DNA from: Chitinivibrio alkaliphilus ACht1 | Lineage (GTDB): Bacteria; Fibrobacterota; Chitinivibrionia; Chitinivibrionales; Chitinivibrionaceae | Assembly: GCF_000474745.1 (NCBI RefSeq) | Contig: NZ_ASJR01000003.1 | Span: 62,001-126,000 of the forward strand | Length of the DNA: 64,000 nt | Reading direction: 5' to 3' | Shown: positions 46,919 through 53,728 of the stretch, piece by piece | Position numbering within the stretch: position 1 is the first letter of the stretch | Layout of the letters: every line of letters starts with the position of its first letter | Notes under the pieces: model-generated | Told to the model about the DNA's origin: nothing | Databases searched by the model: none | The model's input: the letters and a program-made list of their open reading frames with translations, nothing else | Translations under genes and position numbers: made by a program

Positions 46919-48865
46919 TTATAATGTGTGTTTCCTCATGGGCCATCGTACGATGCGGGAGGAGGGTACTCCCTGGTTCATAAGATGCTTCTTTGTGGGA
47001 TCGCCGTATACAAGGCAGGTGCAGTGAGAGGGTATTTCTGTGTAGATATCAAGAAAGGCATCCACGGTACTGGCGGAGGTAAAAAACAGTGCATCAAAGC
47101 GGGTCAGGGATATCTTTGGCTGGGTGCGAAAAAGAGTGTCATACACGGCAAGGGGATATACCTTCTCAATGCTATGGAGGATATTGTCTGAACGATTTGA
47201 GCAGGGGTACAGCCACGATGCGGCATCGCTTCTTATTATTTCCTCGGCAAGATGCTGAGAATCGGCCACGGGGGGGATGTAGTCAACGGATATGTTTCGG
47301 CGCTGCAATTCATGAGCTGTATGGGGCCCCACGGCAGCTACACGTACCTTTGACGGGATGTCCCAGCGGGAAAGGTAGTGTTCCACGCCCCCGTGGGAGG
47401 TGAAGAGTATTCCCTCAAAATCAACTGACGGAAAGGTTGCCCTGCGCGACTGGAGCTGTATGAGAGGATAGGGGCAGATCCGGCGGGGAAGATAGACCCG
47501 CTCCGGTGAAATTCCCGTAAAAAGAATGCGGGGAGATTCTTCTACAGAGGTGGCACAGGGGCCGGCGATATAGATTCCCGGCGGGCGAAGCTCAATCTGA
47601 GGAAGGGCTTCCACGGTGGTGTGTTCAATTTGTTCGTCAGGCCAGGCGGTGCGATGGACCGCCACAACGGGATCGGCGGGATCAAGGCCGCGGCGAAGAA
47701 GCTCTGCCTTCACCTCTTCAGGACGGGAGGTACCCATAAATACAGCCTGGGTTGTCCGATGCTTTTCTTCTTCCGTGGTGTTTTTCCCGTAATGAGCGGA
47801 AAAGGCGGCAAAGCCGCCGGCGGTTTCACGAAGGGTAAGGGGTATACGGGCCGCAGCGGCGGCTGCCTGAAAAGAACTGATTCCGGGAATCACCTCACAA
47901 TGGATATGTTCCCGTCGGGCCGCCCGTATCTCCTCCCCACCCCGTGAAAAAAGCAATGGATCTCCGCCCTTGAGGCGCACCACCCGTTTTCCCCTTCGTG
48001 CTGCTGCAAGGAGCCGCGCTGTTATATCCTCCTGGGGATGCGAATGTTTTCCCTTTCGCTTCCCAACAAAGACAGTCTCACGGGTACAGTAGTCCAGGAG
48101 ACGGGGGTCAAGGAGGGCGTCGTAGAACACAATATCTGCACTTTTCAGGGCAGAAACGCCCCGCAGGGTGAGGAGGTCCGGTGCACCGGGGCCAGCTCCC
48201 ACAAGGGTGATACGTCCCAGATTTTTACGGCTGTCATGTTCGTGAAGGAGTGCAAGGAGCGGATAATTATTCTCACGGCAGACAAGGCCCAGTTTCCCCT
48301 GCAGGGGATGCGTTTTAAGGGGAAGCCGTTCTGTTATAAGATCTTTTTTCCCCAGGCGAAGAAGGGCACACGTTGCGACGATTATGGCATCAACCTCTTC
48401 CCGCTCAAGATAGGCAAGACGCTCTTCTATGGAGCCGCGGATGGATACAATCTCAAGGTCGGGACGCAGGGCAAGAATCTGATCGCGGCGGCTTTGGGAG
48501 CTGGTGCCGAGGCGAGCCTTTTTGGGGAGTTTTGCAAGGGAGAGTCCGGAGCGGCTCACCAGGGCATCCGATGAGTCTTTTCCCTCTGTATGAGCCCCAA
48601 GGACAAGGCCGGAGGGGAGTTTTTCGGGCATATCCTTGGCCGCATGAGCTCCTATGTCAATGGTTCCCTGCAGTATTTTTTCATCAATATCGGCGGTAAA
48701 AAAATCGTCCCGCAGCCCTGACGTCATAAGGGAGGTTGTTTTATCCCGGTCGCCGGGGGAGTCAAACCAGTGAGGTTCCCATTCCACGTGCGGGAAAAGG
48801 GCGGATATCTCCTCTACCTGAGCCCGGGCAAGGGGGCTTTTACGACTTCCGATTCGTAGCTTCAT
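46919..48865 (-). CDS. HemC-CobA-HemD triple fusion with truncated HemC domain
   Basis: This 648-residue protein joins three tetrapyrrole enzymes. Residues 1-216 match porphobilinogen deaminase domains 1 and 2 (IGSRKSPLARAQ, AAKDMPEKLPSG, GTSSQSRRDQI, RGSIEERLAYL). Residues 217-438 are uroporphyrinogen-III C-methyltransferase (VGAGPGAPDLLTLRG, VRLKGGDPLLFSRGGEE, PGISSF). Residues 445-648 match uroporphyrinogen-III synthase (ILFTSHGGVEHYL, ALFFTSASTVDAFL). The third HemC domain, which carries the cysteine for the dipyrromethane cofactor, appears absent; the next domain starts right after LLHEHDSRKNLG. Either it works without that domain, another protein supplies it, or this branch is inactive. 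GGAGG supports the start at 48865, overlapping hemA by 26 nt. The pathway leads to sirohaem, needed for sulfite reductase. Confidence 0.88.
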   Translation of the reverse strand: MKLRIGSRKSPLARAQVEEISALFPHVEWEPHWFDSPGDRDKTTSLMTSGLRDDFFTADIDEKILQGTIDIGAHAAKDMPEKLPSGLVLGAHTEGKDSSDALVSRSGLSLAKLPKKARLGTSSQSRRDQILALRPDLEIVSIRGSIEERLAYLEREEVDAIIVATCALLRLGKKDLITERLPLKTHPLQGKLGLVCRENNYPLLALLHEHDSRKNLGRITLVGAGPGAPDLLTLRGVSALKSADIVFYDALLDPRLLDYCTRETVFVGKRKGKHSHPQEDITARLLAAARRGKRVVRLKGGDPLLFSRGGEEIRAARREHIHCEVIPGISSFQAAAAAARIPLTLRETAGGFAAFSAHYGKNTTEEEKHRTTQAVFMGTSRPEEVKAELLRRGLDPADPVVAVHRTAWPDEQIEHTTVEALPQIELRPPGIYIAGPCATSVEESPRILFTGISPERVYLPRRICPYPLIQLQSRRATFPSVDFEGILFTSHGGVEHYLSRWDIPSKVRVAAVGPHTAHELQRRNISVDYIPPVADSQHLAEEIIRSDAASWLYPCSNRSDNILHSIEKVYPLAVYDTLFRTQPKISLTRFDALFFTSASTVDAFLDIYTEIPSHCTCLVYGDPTKKHLMNQGVPSSRIVRWPMRKHTL

Positions 48866-49763
48866 GATAGTGGCCTCCGTAGAAGAGTTGACGGGTAAAA
48901 CAGGAGCGTTCGAAGGCGGCGTATTCCTCATCAATAATTTTCATGGCAGGGAAAATCTCTTTTTGCCGTTGTCCAAGGGAGTGGGAAATCTTTTCCTCCA
49001 CATCCTCTGTGTTGTAGAGGGTGTAGCTGTGGCCGGTTCCAATTTCCGGGGGAATATCCCGGGGAACGGCAAGATCAATAATCAGGCGGTGCACCCTGTC
49101 CCGGGGGAAATCTTCCGGGGTAAGGAGGTAGTGCGGTGCCCCTGTTGCCGAGACAATAACAGTCTGTGCGGGAAGTATGGTTGCAAGATTTTTGAGGGGA
49201 ACCCACGATGCATTATAGGTGCCGCAAAGGGGGAGGGCATGTTCCTTTGTCCGGTTGCAGAGGGTGAGGAAAAAACACTCACGGCGAAACAGATGGGCCA
49301 GAATCTGCCGGGTTATATCCGTTGTACCCACTACGAGAAACCGATTTTCCGGCCTGAGGAATCCCGTTTCCTCCATTACTTTCAGTGCTCCGTGGGCATG
49401 GGAGATGGCACCCCGGGAGAGGTTGGTTTCCCGGCGTACGCGCTTTCCCGTCCGCAGGGCTGCCTGAAACAAATGATGGAGTCCCGGTGAAATATATCCC
49501 TCCCGGACAGCGCTCATGTAGGCACGTTTTACCTGCCCCTGGATGTGATTCTCCCCGATAAGGGAGGATTCCAGACCGGCAGTTACCCTGAACAGGTGGA
49601 GCGCCACTTCTCTGGGGGCTCGTCCGGTTCCCCGATAGAGCTCCACGCGGTTGCAGGTATGGAGAAGAACATGCGGCCCCGTGCACAGCGGCTGTATCTG
49701 GTGCAGGAGGTCTTCCCGCTCTTCCAGTGTCAGAAGCTGGTCACCGCCGATCTTCTCAATCAT
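48840..49763 (-). CDS. hemA: Glutamyl-tRNA reductase, short form
   Basis: The 307-residue protein has the catalytic cysteine in LLHTCNRVELY, the LIGENHIQGQVKRAY loop, and an NADPH domain with FLVVGTTDITRQIL. It makes glutamate-1-semialdehyde for tetrapyrroles. It is about 100 residues shorter than typical HemA: the N-terminal GINHKTAP-type strand is missing and the C-terminal dimerisation helices are reduced. The start at 49763 overlaps sirC by 8 nt; the longer frame runs inside sirC and shows no family similarity. Confidence 0.85.
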   Translation of the reverse strand: MIEKIGGDQLLTLEEREDLLHQIQPLCTGPHVLLHTCNRVELYRGTGRAPREVALHLFRVTAGLESSLIGENHIQGQVKRAYMSAVREGYISPGLHHLFQAALRTGKRVRRETNLSRGAISHAHGALKVMEETGFLRPENRFLVVGTTDITRQILAHLFRRECFFLTLCNRTKEHALPLCGTYNASWVPLKNLATILPAQTVIVSATGAPHYLLTPEDFPRDRVHRLIIDLAVPRDIPPEIGTGHSYTLYNTEDVEEKISHSLGQRQKEIFPAMKIIDEEYAAFERSCFTRQLFYGGHYHEATNRKS

Positions 49764-50208
49764 TCCTTCCCCCTGCGAGAAAATCCCTGATGCGATTTCG
49801 CAGGGCAATGGATGCCCGCGGATTTGTTGCGTTTGAAGTGACCCCCACACTCATTTCCCCCTCGCGGTACAGGGCAGGAGAGACAAAGTCACAGTGGGAA
49901 GGGTCGTCCACCACATTTACCAAAATCCGTCGTTGCTGTGCATCATGGCCGATTTGCTGGTTTTTGCTGCGATCGTTTGTGGCTGCATAGACAATATGGG
50001 CTCCCTGAAGAAGATCAGGGTGATATTCCCGCTGCTCATGCCAGATAAGGGGAAGCTGGCGAATTTCCCCGCATACCTCCCGGGCAAAGAGCTCCACAGA
50101 GGCCTCATAGGCACAGAGGGTGCGTGCCTTTTGCAATGCCACGGATCCGCCGCCGATAATAACAACCCGCCTGTTTTTGAGATTGAGTCCCACCGGAAGA
50201 TATGCCAT
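49756..50208 (-). CDS. Precorrin-2 dehydrogenase / sirohydrochlorin ferrochelatase-like (CysG N-terminal domain)
   Basis: The 150-residue protein is a single Rossmann-domain CysG-A/Met8 homologue: LPVGLNLKNRRVVIIGGGSVALQKA, then YAATNDRSKNQQIGHDA and VNVVDDPSHCDFVSPALYREGEMSVGVTSNATNP. It oxidises precorrin-2 with NAD and may insert iron to finish sirohaem. At 150 residues it lacks the C-terminal helices of full-length Met8 or SirC, so the chelatase step may belong elsewhere. TAGGAG precedes the ATG. It sits 8 nt behind cysN. Confidence 0.88.
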   Translation of the reverse strand: MAYLPVGLNLKNRRVVIIGGGSVALQKARTLCAYEASVELFAREVCGEIRQLPLIWHEQREYHPDLLQGAHIVYAATNDRSKNQQIGHDAQQRRILVNVVDDPSHCDFVSPALYREGEMSVGVTSNATNPRASIALRNRIRDFLAGGRND

Positions 50209-50216
50209 TACTTCTC

Positions 50217-52053
50217 CTAAATAGTGTATTCCGGTAATATATCTTCTTCCTTCAGCTGTTCATATATCCTTATGACAGCCTTGTCTACGGAGATATCCTC
50301 AGGGAGGATCAGGTTGATTTCTTTACGGGGGAGGGGCGTGTCGCCGCAGGAAATGACGAAAAACTCATGAGGTGCTGCAAGGTGGCGCATCTGTTTCAGG
50401 TCGTAGGCATGAACCAGATCCAAGGGAGTGATAAAAATAAGACCTGCATCGGTGAGGATCCGGGATAGCTCCCCCAAACGACGGATATGTTCATCCCTGT
50501 TAAAGGATGCATCCTGCACATCAGAATCAAGGCCGCCCTTTATATTTGACATGCCGAGATAGTAGGGAGCAAAGCCGGCGGAAAAAAGGTATTTTTCAAG
50601 GGCCCGGGCTATGTCCCGCTTTAGCCCCCTGTCTGTACCAATACACAGGACCGTTTTTCCCCGATGGCCATACCGCGCATGGCGTTTTTTTTGTGTTACC
50701 AGCCCCGTTTCCCAGAAGAATTCACGACGCTGAACATGTGCCTCCAGACTTTCGTCACCGGTGTCGTCAAAGCTCTTTCCCTCCAACACCATACCGGCTG
50801 CGACAGTACCATGATGGAGGGGATCGATAATTATAAATGCGCCGGTTTGAGGGTTTTTGCTGAAGGGGTCAATATATATCGGCTGGGTGGTACTGAGGCG
50901 GATGCGACCGATTCCGTTGAGGGGGAGGGAGTTGGCCTCTTCTTTCTCCAGAGTGTTTACATTCACGGCATAGACAAGGGAGTCCACCCGCGCTTTTATG
51001 GTACGTCCGCAATGGCGAAGCAAAACGGGGGTTCCCGGGTGAAGGGGGGATTCACTCATCCAGACGGTGACCGCTTCAAAAAGAGAACGTACCTGTGGGG
51101 GATTGTGGGGATGTACCAGCATATCACCGCTGCTGATATCAACCTCATCTGAGAGGACAAGGGTTACGGCCTGACCGGCAAAGGCTGAATCCAATGAGCC
51201 GTCGGCAGTAACAATTTCCTGTACCGTGGTTTCCCGGCGCGAGGGAAGGACCTGTATTTTGTCTCCCCGGTGTATCGCGCCTGAGGCAACAGTTCCTGAA
51301 AAACCGCGAAAATCAAGGGTTGGTCGGTTTACATACTGCACGGGGTAGCGGAAATCCGTAAAATTTTCCCCCTTATGAACGGGGACTTTTTCCAGACGTG
51401 GCAAGAGAGGTTCATCCGTATACCAGGGGGTATTGGAAGACGGGTTAACCACATTGTCGCCCTTGAGGGCGGAAAGGGGTATAAAATAGATGTCTTCAAA
51501 ATCCATCTCCCGAGAAAACTCCTCAAAATCTTTGCGAATACGTGCAAAGACCTCTTCGGAATAGTCCACAAGATCCATTTTGTTTATCGCCACCACCACC
51601 TGTTGTATACCCAAAAGAGATACGATAAAGCTGTGGCGTTTTGTCTGAGTGATTACTCCCTTTCGGGCATCAATCAAAACAACGGCAAGTTTTGCCGTGG
51701 ATGCCCCCGTTGCCATATTACGGGTGTACTGTTCATGTCCCGGCGTGTCGGCAATAATAAATTTTTCGTGCCGGAGTGGAGAAGTAGCGGTAGGCAACAT
51801 CAATAGTAATTCCCTGTTCGCGCTCGGCCTTTAATCCATCAAGGAGCAGGGAGTAGTCAAACTCTTCGTCCCCCTTATTTTCGCGGTTTTTGCTTTCCTC
51901 CCCCAGCTTAGCCAACTGGTCGTCATAGATTAGCTTGCTGTCAAAGAGCAGGCGGCCAATGAGGGTGGATTTTCCGTCATCCACGGAACCGCAGGTGATG
52001 AAGCGAAGAAGGTCCTTGTGTTCGTGCGTATCAAGAAAGGTGTCGATATTCAT
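50217..52053 (-). CDS. cysN: Sulfate adenylyltransferase large subunit with degenerate APS-kinase domain (CysN-CysC-like), one-base frameshift
   Basis: The N-terminal frame (52053 to about 51767) encodes the GTPase start with [18 protein letters not shown] and ends [11 protein letters not shown], then runs out of frame. The second frame continues [22 protein letters not shown]. Removing one base from the five-T run at 51762-51766 joins them into about 611 residues. EF-Tu-like domains are followed by a C-terminal 150-residue region aligned to APS kinase, but its P-loop reads GTDRGLKRD instead of GLSGSGKST and the DGDNVR motif is lost. CysN with CysD makes APS from sulfate and ATP, driven by GTP. 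The frameshift is probably a sequencing error. AGAGGA precedes the start. Confidence 0.88.
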
Positions 52054-52077: not shown

Positions 52078-52986
52078 TTAGAAGTATCCTTCCCGTTTTT
52101 TCTGCTCCATGGAACTGTCTCCATCATGGTCGATAACCCGTGTGGATCGTTCGGAATCACGGGTTTCCATCATTTCTGCAACGATTTTTTCCACCGTATC
52201 TGCCTCAGACTCCACCGCCCCTGTCAGGGGATAGCACCCCAGGGTTCTGAAACGGACTTTCTTCATGTGGACCTCCTCCCCTTTCCTGAGGGGAAATCTC
52301 TCATCATCCACCATAATGAGGGTGCCGTCACGTTCCACTACGGGGCGCTCCTTTGCAAAATAGAGGGGGACAATCGGGATTTTTTCAAGGCGGATATACT
52401 GCCAGATATCAAGCTCTGTCCAGTTTGACAGGGGAAAAACACGGACGCTTTCCCCTATGTTGAGTTTGCCGTTATAGATATTCCACAGTTCGGGACGCTG
52501 ATTTTTGGGATCCCACTGGTGGTGGGTATCGCGAAAGGAGTAGATACGTTCCTTTGCCCGGGACCGTTCTTCGTCGCGGCGCGCGCCCCCAAATGCACAG
52601 TCGTAGCGCCCCTTATTCAGTGCCTGAAGCAGGGCCTGGGTTTTCATAATGTCGGTATATTTTCTGCTTCCCAGTGTAAAGGGGGTTGCTCCCATTTCAA
52701 TGCCGTCGCGGTTGATGTGTTCCAAGCATTCCAGACCGTTTTCTTCGCAAAAGCGATCACGGAAGCTGATCATCTCCCGAAACTTCCAGGTGGTATTTAT
52801 ATGGAGCAGTTTAAAGGGGATTTTTCCCGGATAAAAGGCTTTTTGCGCCAGGCGGACCATAACCCCTGAGTCCTTCCCAATGGAGTAGAGCATGACAGGG
52901 TTTTCAAACTGGCTGACGGCGTCACGAATAATATGGATGCTTTCTGCTTCCAGTTGTTTCAGCTGGCTGAGGGAATAATCGGTCAT
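52078..52986 (-). CDS. cysD: Sulfate adenylyltransferase small subunit
   Basis: The 302-residue protein belongs to the PP-loop ATP pyrophosphatase group with [18 protein letters not shown], then [19 protein letters not shown] and the C-terminal [14 protein letters not shown]. It adenylates sulfate together with CysN. The longer frame upstream overlaps cysH; the ATG at 52986 follows AAAGGAAAGG and gives the standard N-terminus ([20 protein letters not shown]). Confidence 0.96.
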
Positions 52987-52999
52987 AGCCTTTCCTTTC

Positions 53000-53701
53000 C
53001 TATTGTTTATGCAATCCGCACTCTTTGTGCTCAGGATCTTCCCACCACCACCGTCCGGCACGGATATCTTCGTCGGGGCCTATGGCGCGGGTACAGCAGG
53101 CACACCCAAGACTGCGAAACCCCTTTTTCTGCAGGGGATTAAAGGGTATATTCTCACGGTGGATAATTTCCCACACCTCTTGTTCGCTCCATTCCAAAAG
53201 GGGATTGATTTTCCATATATTCCAGTTATTGTCCCATTCGACGCGTTTCATAGATGTCCTCGTGGGGGCTTGCTCGCGTCTTAGGCCGGTAATCCAGCAG
53301 TCTGCCGTGTAAAGAATTTTCTTCAGGGGTTCTGTTTTCCGTATGCGGCAGCACTCCTTACGGGCTTCCACGGAGGTTCTGAAAAAATTGGGCCCCTCCC
53401 TGGCAATAACCGGTGCAAGCTCTGCTGCATCGGGAAATCCCACTTCACAGGAGTAATTATATTTTTGCAGGGTATAATCCATGACATCGTAGGTCTCCTG
53501 AAAAAGGCGTCCCGTATCCAGGGTGAAAATCCGGGCATTTTTCTCCTGTGAGAGAAACATCCAGGTGAGAAGCTGGTCTTCAATGGAAAAACTGCTGGCC
53601 AGGACAAGCCGTTTCGGCGAAAATGTTTGTAGTGCCCAGGTAAGGAGCTCCTCTGTTGTGAGTTTTTTTGTGTCTGCTTCATAGGTTGTGGGTGTACTCA
53701 T
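53000..53701 (-). CDS. cysH: Assimilatory APS reductase (thioredoxin-dependent)
   Basis: The 233-residue protein has the CysH fold ([27 protein letters not shown]). It has the CC...CxxC pattern of the Fe-S class: [22 protein letters not shown], plus the catalytic cysteine near the end in ECGLH. These cysteines mark APS rather than PAPS reductases. The enzyme reduces APS to sulfite with thioredoxin. It heads the sulfate/sirohaem operon, and AAGGA supports the ATG at 53701. Confidence 0.94.
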
Positions 53702-53728
53702 AACCAAATCCTTATAAAATACATGTGC

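Follow-up and report, generated by a model that had tools for sequence, protein, structure and literature searches.

A HemC-CobA-HemD fusion among shortened enzymes

The window, a stretch of 64,000 nucleotides from the draft genome of Chitinivibrio alkaliphilus ACht1 (a soda-lake chitin fermenter with a 2.6 Mb genome, PMC4704652), carries on its minus strand, from 48865 to 46919, a single intact open reading frame that begins with ATG and encodes 648 amino acids plus a stop codon. The N-terminal part (residues 1–212; 48230–48865) is HemC, matched by Porphobil_deam (PF01379) at residues 3 to 200 (8e-49; 166.4 bits against a cut-off of 22.1). The CobA/SUMT part (approximately residues 216–440; 47546–48220) is matched by TP_methylase (PF00590) at residues 218 to 421 (2e-51, far above cut-off) and passes the SUMT model TIGR01469 (207.8 bits; curated cut-off 185), and the HemD part (approximately residues 444–648; 46922–47536) is matched by HEM4 (PF02602) at residues 467 to 635 (7e-23; 81.5 bits against 27.5). 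The triple fusion proposed in an earlier sequence-only reading of this DNA is therefore borne out by one frame and three Pfam matches. The accompanying view that three enzymes in one chain are less usual is tempered: the arrangement is real here, but chains of HemC with CobA-HemD are reported in Euryarchaeota (PMC11237513). A single-sequence AlphaFold model of the fusion reached a mean pLDDT of 38.5 and was left unused. The SAM-site motif of CobA (48182–48220) reads GAGPGAPDLLT in the window and GAGPGDPELLT or GGGPGDPDLLT in the relatives introduced below (G026 and G006, both with GDP); GAP in place of GDP may hint at incipient decay.

The hemA gene (glutamyl-tRNA reductase; 48840–49763, minus strand; PF05201 and PF01488) overlaps the 5′ end of the fusion gene by 26 bases; its own start was placed at the Met common to the aligned relatives, the longest open frame reaching 49850. 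It is preceded on the same strand by a gene for a short Met8/CysG-N-like protein of 150 residues (49756–50208; PF13241, 105 bits), by cysN (50217–52053), and by cysD and cysH upstream in the same run (52078–53707), the last two assigned from their open frames, by eye and from the matching gene order in G006. Compared by eye with the unbroken CysN of G006, cysN has a frameshift near 51765, close to a short A run, that splits it into frames of 528 and 106 amino acids; the shift could be genuine or an error of sequencing. The dimerization domain PF00745 is absent from HemA of the window, G026 and G006 (291–298 residues in the relatives), and Met8 in the same three genomes is a protein of only 147 to 150 residues that consists of just the NAD-binding domain (the two genes together at L034:5560–6871 and L036:7316–8639 in the relatives). 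The entire cassette, not HemC alone, is pared down to shortened enzymes.

Absence of domain 3 and residues of the pyrrole cleft

HMBS is presented as needing a dipyrromethane primer that self-assembles on a cysteine of domain 3. As the sequence-only reading had proposed, the HemC part of the fusion stops after domain 2: the match to TIGR00212 (hemC), narrowly above cut-off, is confined to profile positions 1 to 218 of 293, and no match to PF03900 (HemC domain 3) was found in the fusion protein, or anywhere in the window genome, at E ≤ 10. Alignment with solved HMBS structures stops at chain residue 219 to 224 of 312 to 313, close to the last inter-domain hinge of E. coli HMBS (218–221; PMC3945110). 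PF03900 is a weak family that also misses some HemCs with frames of normal length (e.g., that of G019), so its non-match alone is a weak argument. The gap between the HemC and CobA matches is only ∼17 amino acids, with HemC ending near residue 212 and CobA starting near 216, and the junction lies at the identical place in two intact relatives that share only 38 to 44% overall identity with the window protein. A divergent third domain or a frameshift inside the fusion, either of which the sequence-only reading had allowed for as a source of error, was looked for and is ruled out by the short gap and conserved junction together with the absence of PF03900. PF01379 was matched exactly once in the window genome (2,591,328 bases in 99 contigs), so the suggestion of a second HemC can be set aside within an assembly that is 96.65% complete.

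Conservation of the cleft was compared in an alignment of 41 full-length and four short HemCs, with E. coli HMBS numbering. All four short HemCs retain twelve cleft residues (R11, S13, K83, D84, T127, S129, R132, R149, R155, R176, Q198, and G199). Among 54 columns that are at least 95% identical in the full-length HemCs and the same in E. coli, 13 differ in every short HemC (10, 58, 60, 64, 101, 131, 154, 158, 169, 172, 173, 195, and 197); the short HemCs have thereby lost R131, R101, and the 58–64 loop, which every full-length HemC of the phylum conserves. Position 172, which lines the pyrrole cleft, is Cys in 4/4 short and Ala in 41/41 full-length HemCs, and the Cys is accompanied by changes at 173 (Ala instead of Gly), 193, and 195. 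In simulations of E. coli HMBS, A172 touches the chain at four, five, and six pyrroles and G173 at three and four (PMC3945110). Given these contacts, the equivalent residue in the window, Cys166 (codon at 48368–48370, minus strand), is the best candidate for a relocated anchor and may, tentatively, hold the primer or chain in place of the domain-3 Cys. Cys555, in the HemD part, is likewise invariant in the three intact fusions.

NCBIfam NF002202 (PRK01066), an HMBS model with a length of just 241 positions, describes a stand-alone protein that also lacks domain 3 and is apparently chlamydial HemC. The window HemC was matched at positions 20 to 231 of this model with 173.3 bits, compared to 171.7 bits on TIGR00212, and the curated cut-off of 251 bits was missed by the three intact short HemCs (153–173 bits). 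When single window residues were reverted and rescored against both models, NF002202 lost 1.6 to 3.7 bits with each of A167G, H186L, L188A, F55L, T57V, G95R, and S7T, all of which, except for T57V, which lowered both scores, raised that of TIGR00212; C166A and S125R raised the NF002202 score by 2.7 and 3.9 bits, respectively. By this probe, the short clade and NF002202 have in common S10, F61, A173, H193, and L195, as well as a residue other than Arg at 101; at 172 and 131, unlike the clade, the model favors Ala and Arg, respectively. The probe is independent of a provisional Chlamydia trachomatis HemC sequence, used only as a lead to the origin of the model, which scored 431.5 bits to NF002202, had no PF03900 match at E ≤ 10, and joined the short clade with support of 100/98 on a very long branch. 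Because NF002202 lacks domain 3 and has Ala at 172, loss of the domain is wider than the fusion, and Cys172 is not a general replacement for it. HMBS without domain 3 is a known but apparently uncharacterized kind of enzyme, of which the fused Cys172 form is a variant; no biochemical study of NF002202-type or other HMBS lacking domain 3 was found in the open literature searched.

Relatives, siroheme genes, and the state of the pathway

Among 168 genomes of the phylum, 129 with a HemC match, a short HemC was found in four: the window genome, G026 and G027 from the same family, and G006 from another family of the same order. The loss is thus shared by relatives, a point that the sequence-only reading had left to comparison, and the fusion is the sole HemC in each of the three. 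Intact fusions of 643 and 645 residues are present in G026 and G006. The copy in G027, on a 3.8-kb contig (L035; G027:C308), has two in-frame stops and adjoins a split hemA, and fragments of sulfite reductase in this genome also carry stops, consistent with parallel decay of the route or a poor assembly; the stops in the fusion point to a gene that is dispensable in at least one relative. In a tree of HemC domains 1 and 2, the four short HemCs form one clade with support of 100/100. The normal HemC of G005, from the same genus as G006, is placed elsewhere, which suggests that the cassette was probably transferred or replaced. Of the three parts of the fusion, HemC is conserved best (pairwise identity 46–52%, compared to 37–45% for CobA and 33–37% for HemD), and differences between G026 and G027 fall mostly at third codon positions (95/49/189), both of which argue against a relic domain in the clade. 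Accelerated decay of the window fusion was considered and is mild only (Tajima chi-square of 5.1 for the whole fusion and 3.2 for HemC). One scan of genomic contigs beyond the phylum returned two matches only, both to the CobA region and both in Algoriphagus; no relatives of the fusion were found in viral contigs, and a plasmid search returned HemC beside CobA-HemD rather than short fusions.

Gene context was read in G006, whose genome is 97% complete, compared to only 69% for G026. On contig C113 of G006, the run begins with cysteine synthase, sulfhydrylase, ThiF-like and JAB-like proteins, and a sulfite reductase fused to TusA and continues with CysH, a second cysteine synthase, CysD, CysN, Met8, HemA, the fusion, and HemB; HemB, HemA, Met8, sulfite reductase, CysH, and the fusion were identified by Pfam and the remaining genes by eye. 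An intact HemL (614 bits) lies elsewhere in this genome, and intact HemL, HemB, and sulfite reductase are also present in G026. The make-up of the G006 cluster suggests that it supplies siroheme specifically to sulfite reduction. Since the fusion is the only HemC match in G006, this 97% complete genome offers no other candidate for HMB synthesis; that HMB is made without domain 3 in the relatives would be the best inference from these gene sets.

The pathway appears to be broken in the window genome. Of HemL, only the C-terminal half remains (profile positions 217–418 of 423; L088:5727–6323, contig C3 150745–151338), ∼25 kb past the end of the window, and this remnant, whose missing N-terminal half corresponds to the 5′ half of the gene, directly adjoins a divergent gene for a mechanosensitive-channel-like protein. 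HemB, whose presence the sequence-only reading had proposed to check, was not found in this genome by family model or with the G026 protein as query, and sulfite reductase (PF01077) had no match there. Truncated HemL, frameshifted cysN, and the missing HemB and sulfite reductase together suggest that the whole tetrapyrrole route is probably idle in this organism and that the fusion would be an unfed remnant whose frame has stayed intact. Open frames also persist for HemA and Met8, so any decay would be recent, unless gaps hide the missing genes. The cysH and cysD genes are kept in the window genome, in which no sulfite reductase was found.

A separate conserved cluster with a second type of HemB was read in six genomes, with G024 left out (L063:3048–12538, L062:4950–12547, L061, L064, L060, and L065). 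Its order is HemA, a HemL-like aminotransferase (seen in L063), a protein of ∼540 residues with no Pfam match and a weak phenylacetate-CoA-ligase likeness, the second HemB type, a glycosyltransferase, an FAD oxidase, and a UbiD decarboxylase; the glycosyltransferase and FAD oxidase were not seen in L065. The second HemB type or a similar one occurs in five genomes with no HemC match (G016, G017, G024, G025, and G038), and the cluster may therefore use PBG or ALA to make a natural product without a link to tetrapyrroles.

Possible activity of the short HemC and comparison with known systems

The explanation favored overall, with a probability of roughly 0.6, is that the fusion joins a branch of HMBS lacking domain 3 to CobA-HemD and would be active in the intact relatives but is probably unfed in the window genome. 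HMB from the short HemC would be converted by HemD to uroporphyrinogen III and by CobA to precorrin-2 for siroheme, all in one chain, and in the intact relatives the siroheme would serve sulfite reductase. The HemC part would use the ordinary cleft between domains 1 and 2, in which D84, K83, R132, R149, and R155 are kept, and the pyrrole chain would be anchored or primed without domain 3, the likeliest anchor in the clade being cleft Cys166. The window genome would since have lost the 5′ half of hemL, HemB, and sulfite reductase. Of the three options offered by the sequence-only reading (altered chemistry, a second HemC, or a relic domain), the relatives are best explained by the first, a changed way of priming or anchoring, as HemC is the best conserved part, its catalytic residues are mostly kept, and the full siroheme and sulfite-reduction gene set is present; the same conservation speaks against a relic in the clade.

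How the chain might be held is a matter of lesser confidence. That the primer anchor has moved to Cys166 in the domain-2 cleft, such that domain 3 is dispensable and the domain-3 dipyrromethane mechanism not universal, is put forward tentatively and is on balance doubtful. It is possible, if on the unlikely side, that salt bridges in domains 1 and 2 keep a free primer or the growing chain in place without any covalent Cys, and that Cys172 is incidental to the clade; most arginines that contact pyrrole side chains have been retained, and NF002202, itself without domain 3, shares A173, H193, L195, and F61 yet prefers Ala at 172. However, four diverged short HemCs all have Cys172, which occurs in none of the 41 full-length ones, and HMBS chemistry as known relies on covalent dipyrromethane (PMC3945110). 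Another Cys of the same chain, e.g., Cys555 of HemD, might reach the HemC cleft, the fusion itself restoring the anchor. The invariance of Cys555 is compatible with this arrangement, which would account for HemC being fused, but the NF002202 enzyme is modeled as a stand-alone protein, and the low-confidence structural model lends no support, making this very improbable.

Two further alternatives concern whether the route operates at all. Absence of domain 3 and R131, along with a pathway that is decayed in the window genome and apparently in G027, would be expected if HemC had no HMBS activity throughout the clade and served as a scaffold or relic, with tetrapyrroles obtained elsewhere. This is distinctly unlikely, given that no other third of the fusion is as well conserved as HemC, that the five cleft residues named above are invariant, and that G006 keeps HemL, HemB, Met8, and sulfite reductase without another HemC. 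For the window genome only, it is unlikely that the pathway is complete and that HemB, sulfite reductase, and the rest of HemL were lost to assembly gaps or errors. The 99-contig draft falls short of completeness, the fusion, HemA, and Met8 frames are intact, and the A run beside the cysN frameshift could reflect sequencing error; yet the truncated HemL lies ∼16 kb within an N-free contig of 167,847 bases, abutting its divergent neighbor, and three separate genes would all need to fall in gaps.

The preferred reading, activity without domain 3 in the intact relatives, suggests from gene content and residue conservation that the textbook anchoring domain of HMBS can be done without. A clade in which such a HemC is the sole one beside a complete siroheme gene set makes the requirement for domain 3 directly testable with one small protein, could show how small the working core of HMBS, a central enzyme in the making of heme, siroheme, and B12, can be, and draws attention to the short NF002202 model.

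Compared to canonical HMBS (TIGR00212; E. coli 1PDA and Bacillus megaterium 4MLQ), the window HemC has domains 1 and 2 with R11, S13, K83, D84, T127, S129, R132, R149, R155, R176, and Q198 in common but is without domain 3 and an equivalent of C242, has lost R131 and R101, and carries Cys172 and Ala173. NF002202/PRK01066 ends at about the same place and shares S10, F61, A173, H193, and L195; it differs as a stand-alone model with Ala172 and Arg131, on which the window HemC scores 173 bits, below the cut-off of 251. The window HemC is thus neither a canonical HMBS, since domain 3 was sought and is absent, nor a member of NF002202 as defined, since the cut-off is missed. The same three activities, in the same order, are encoded by adjacent hemC and cobA-hemD in Fusobacterium, Ilyobacter, and clostridia-type bacteria; the homologous stretch is ∼2.2 kb in Fusobacterium and Ilyobacter compared to ∼1.8 kb in the window, and cobA and hemC are annotated as separate genes in Ilyobacter and Peptoclostridium. 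The Euryarchaeota fusions share all three enzymes per chain (PMC11237513). Triple chains in archaea and, as a database model, HMBS lacking domain 3 are already known; within the literature searched, the combination of a new, invariant cleft Cys with loss of R131, in the sole HemC of a genome whose siroheme genes are complete, appears to be new.
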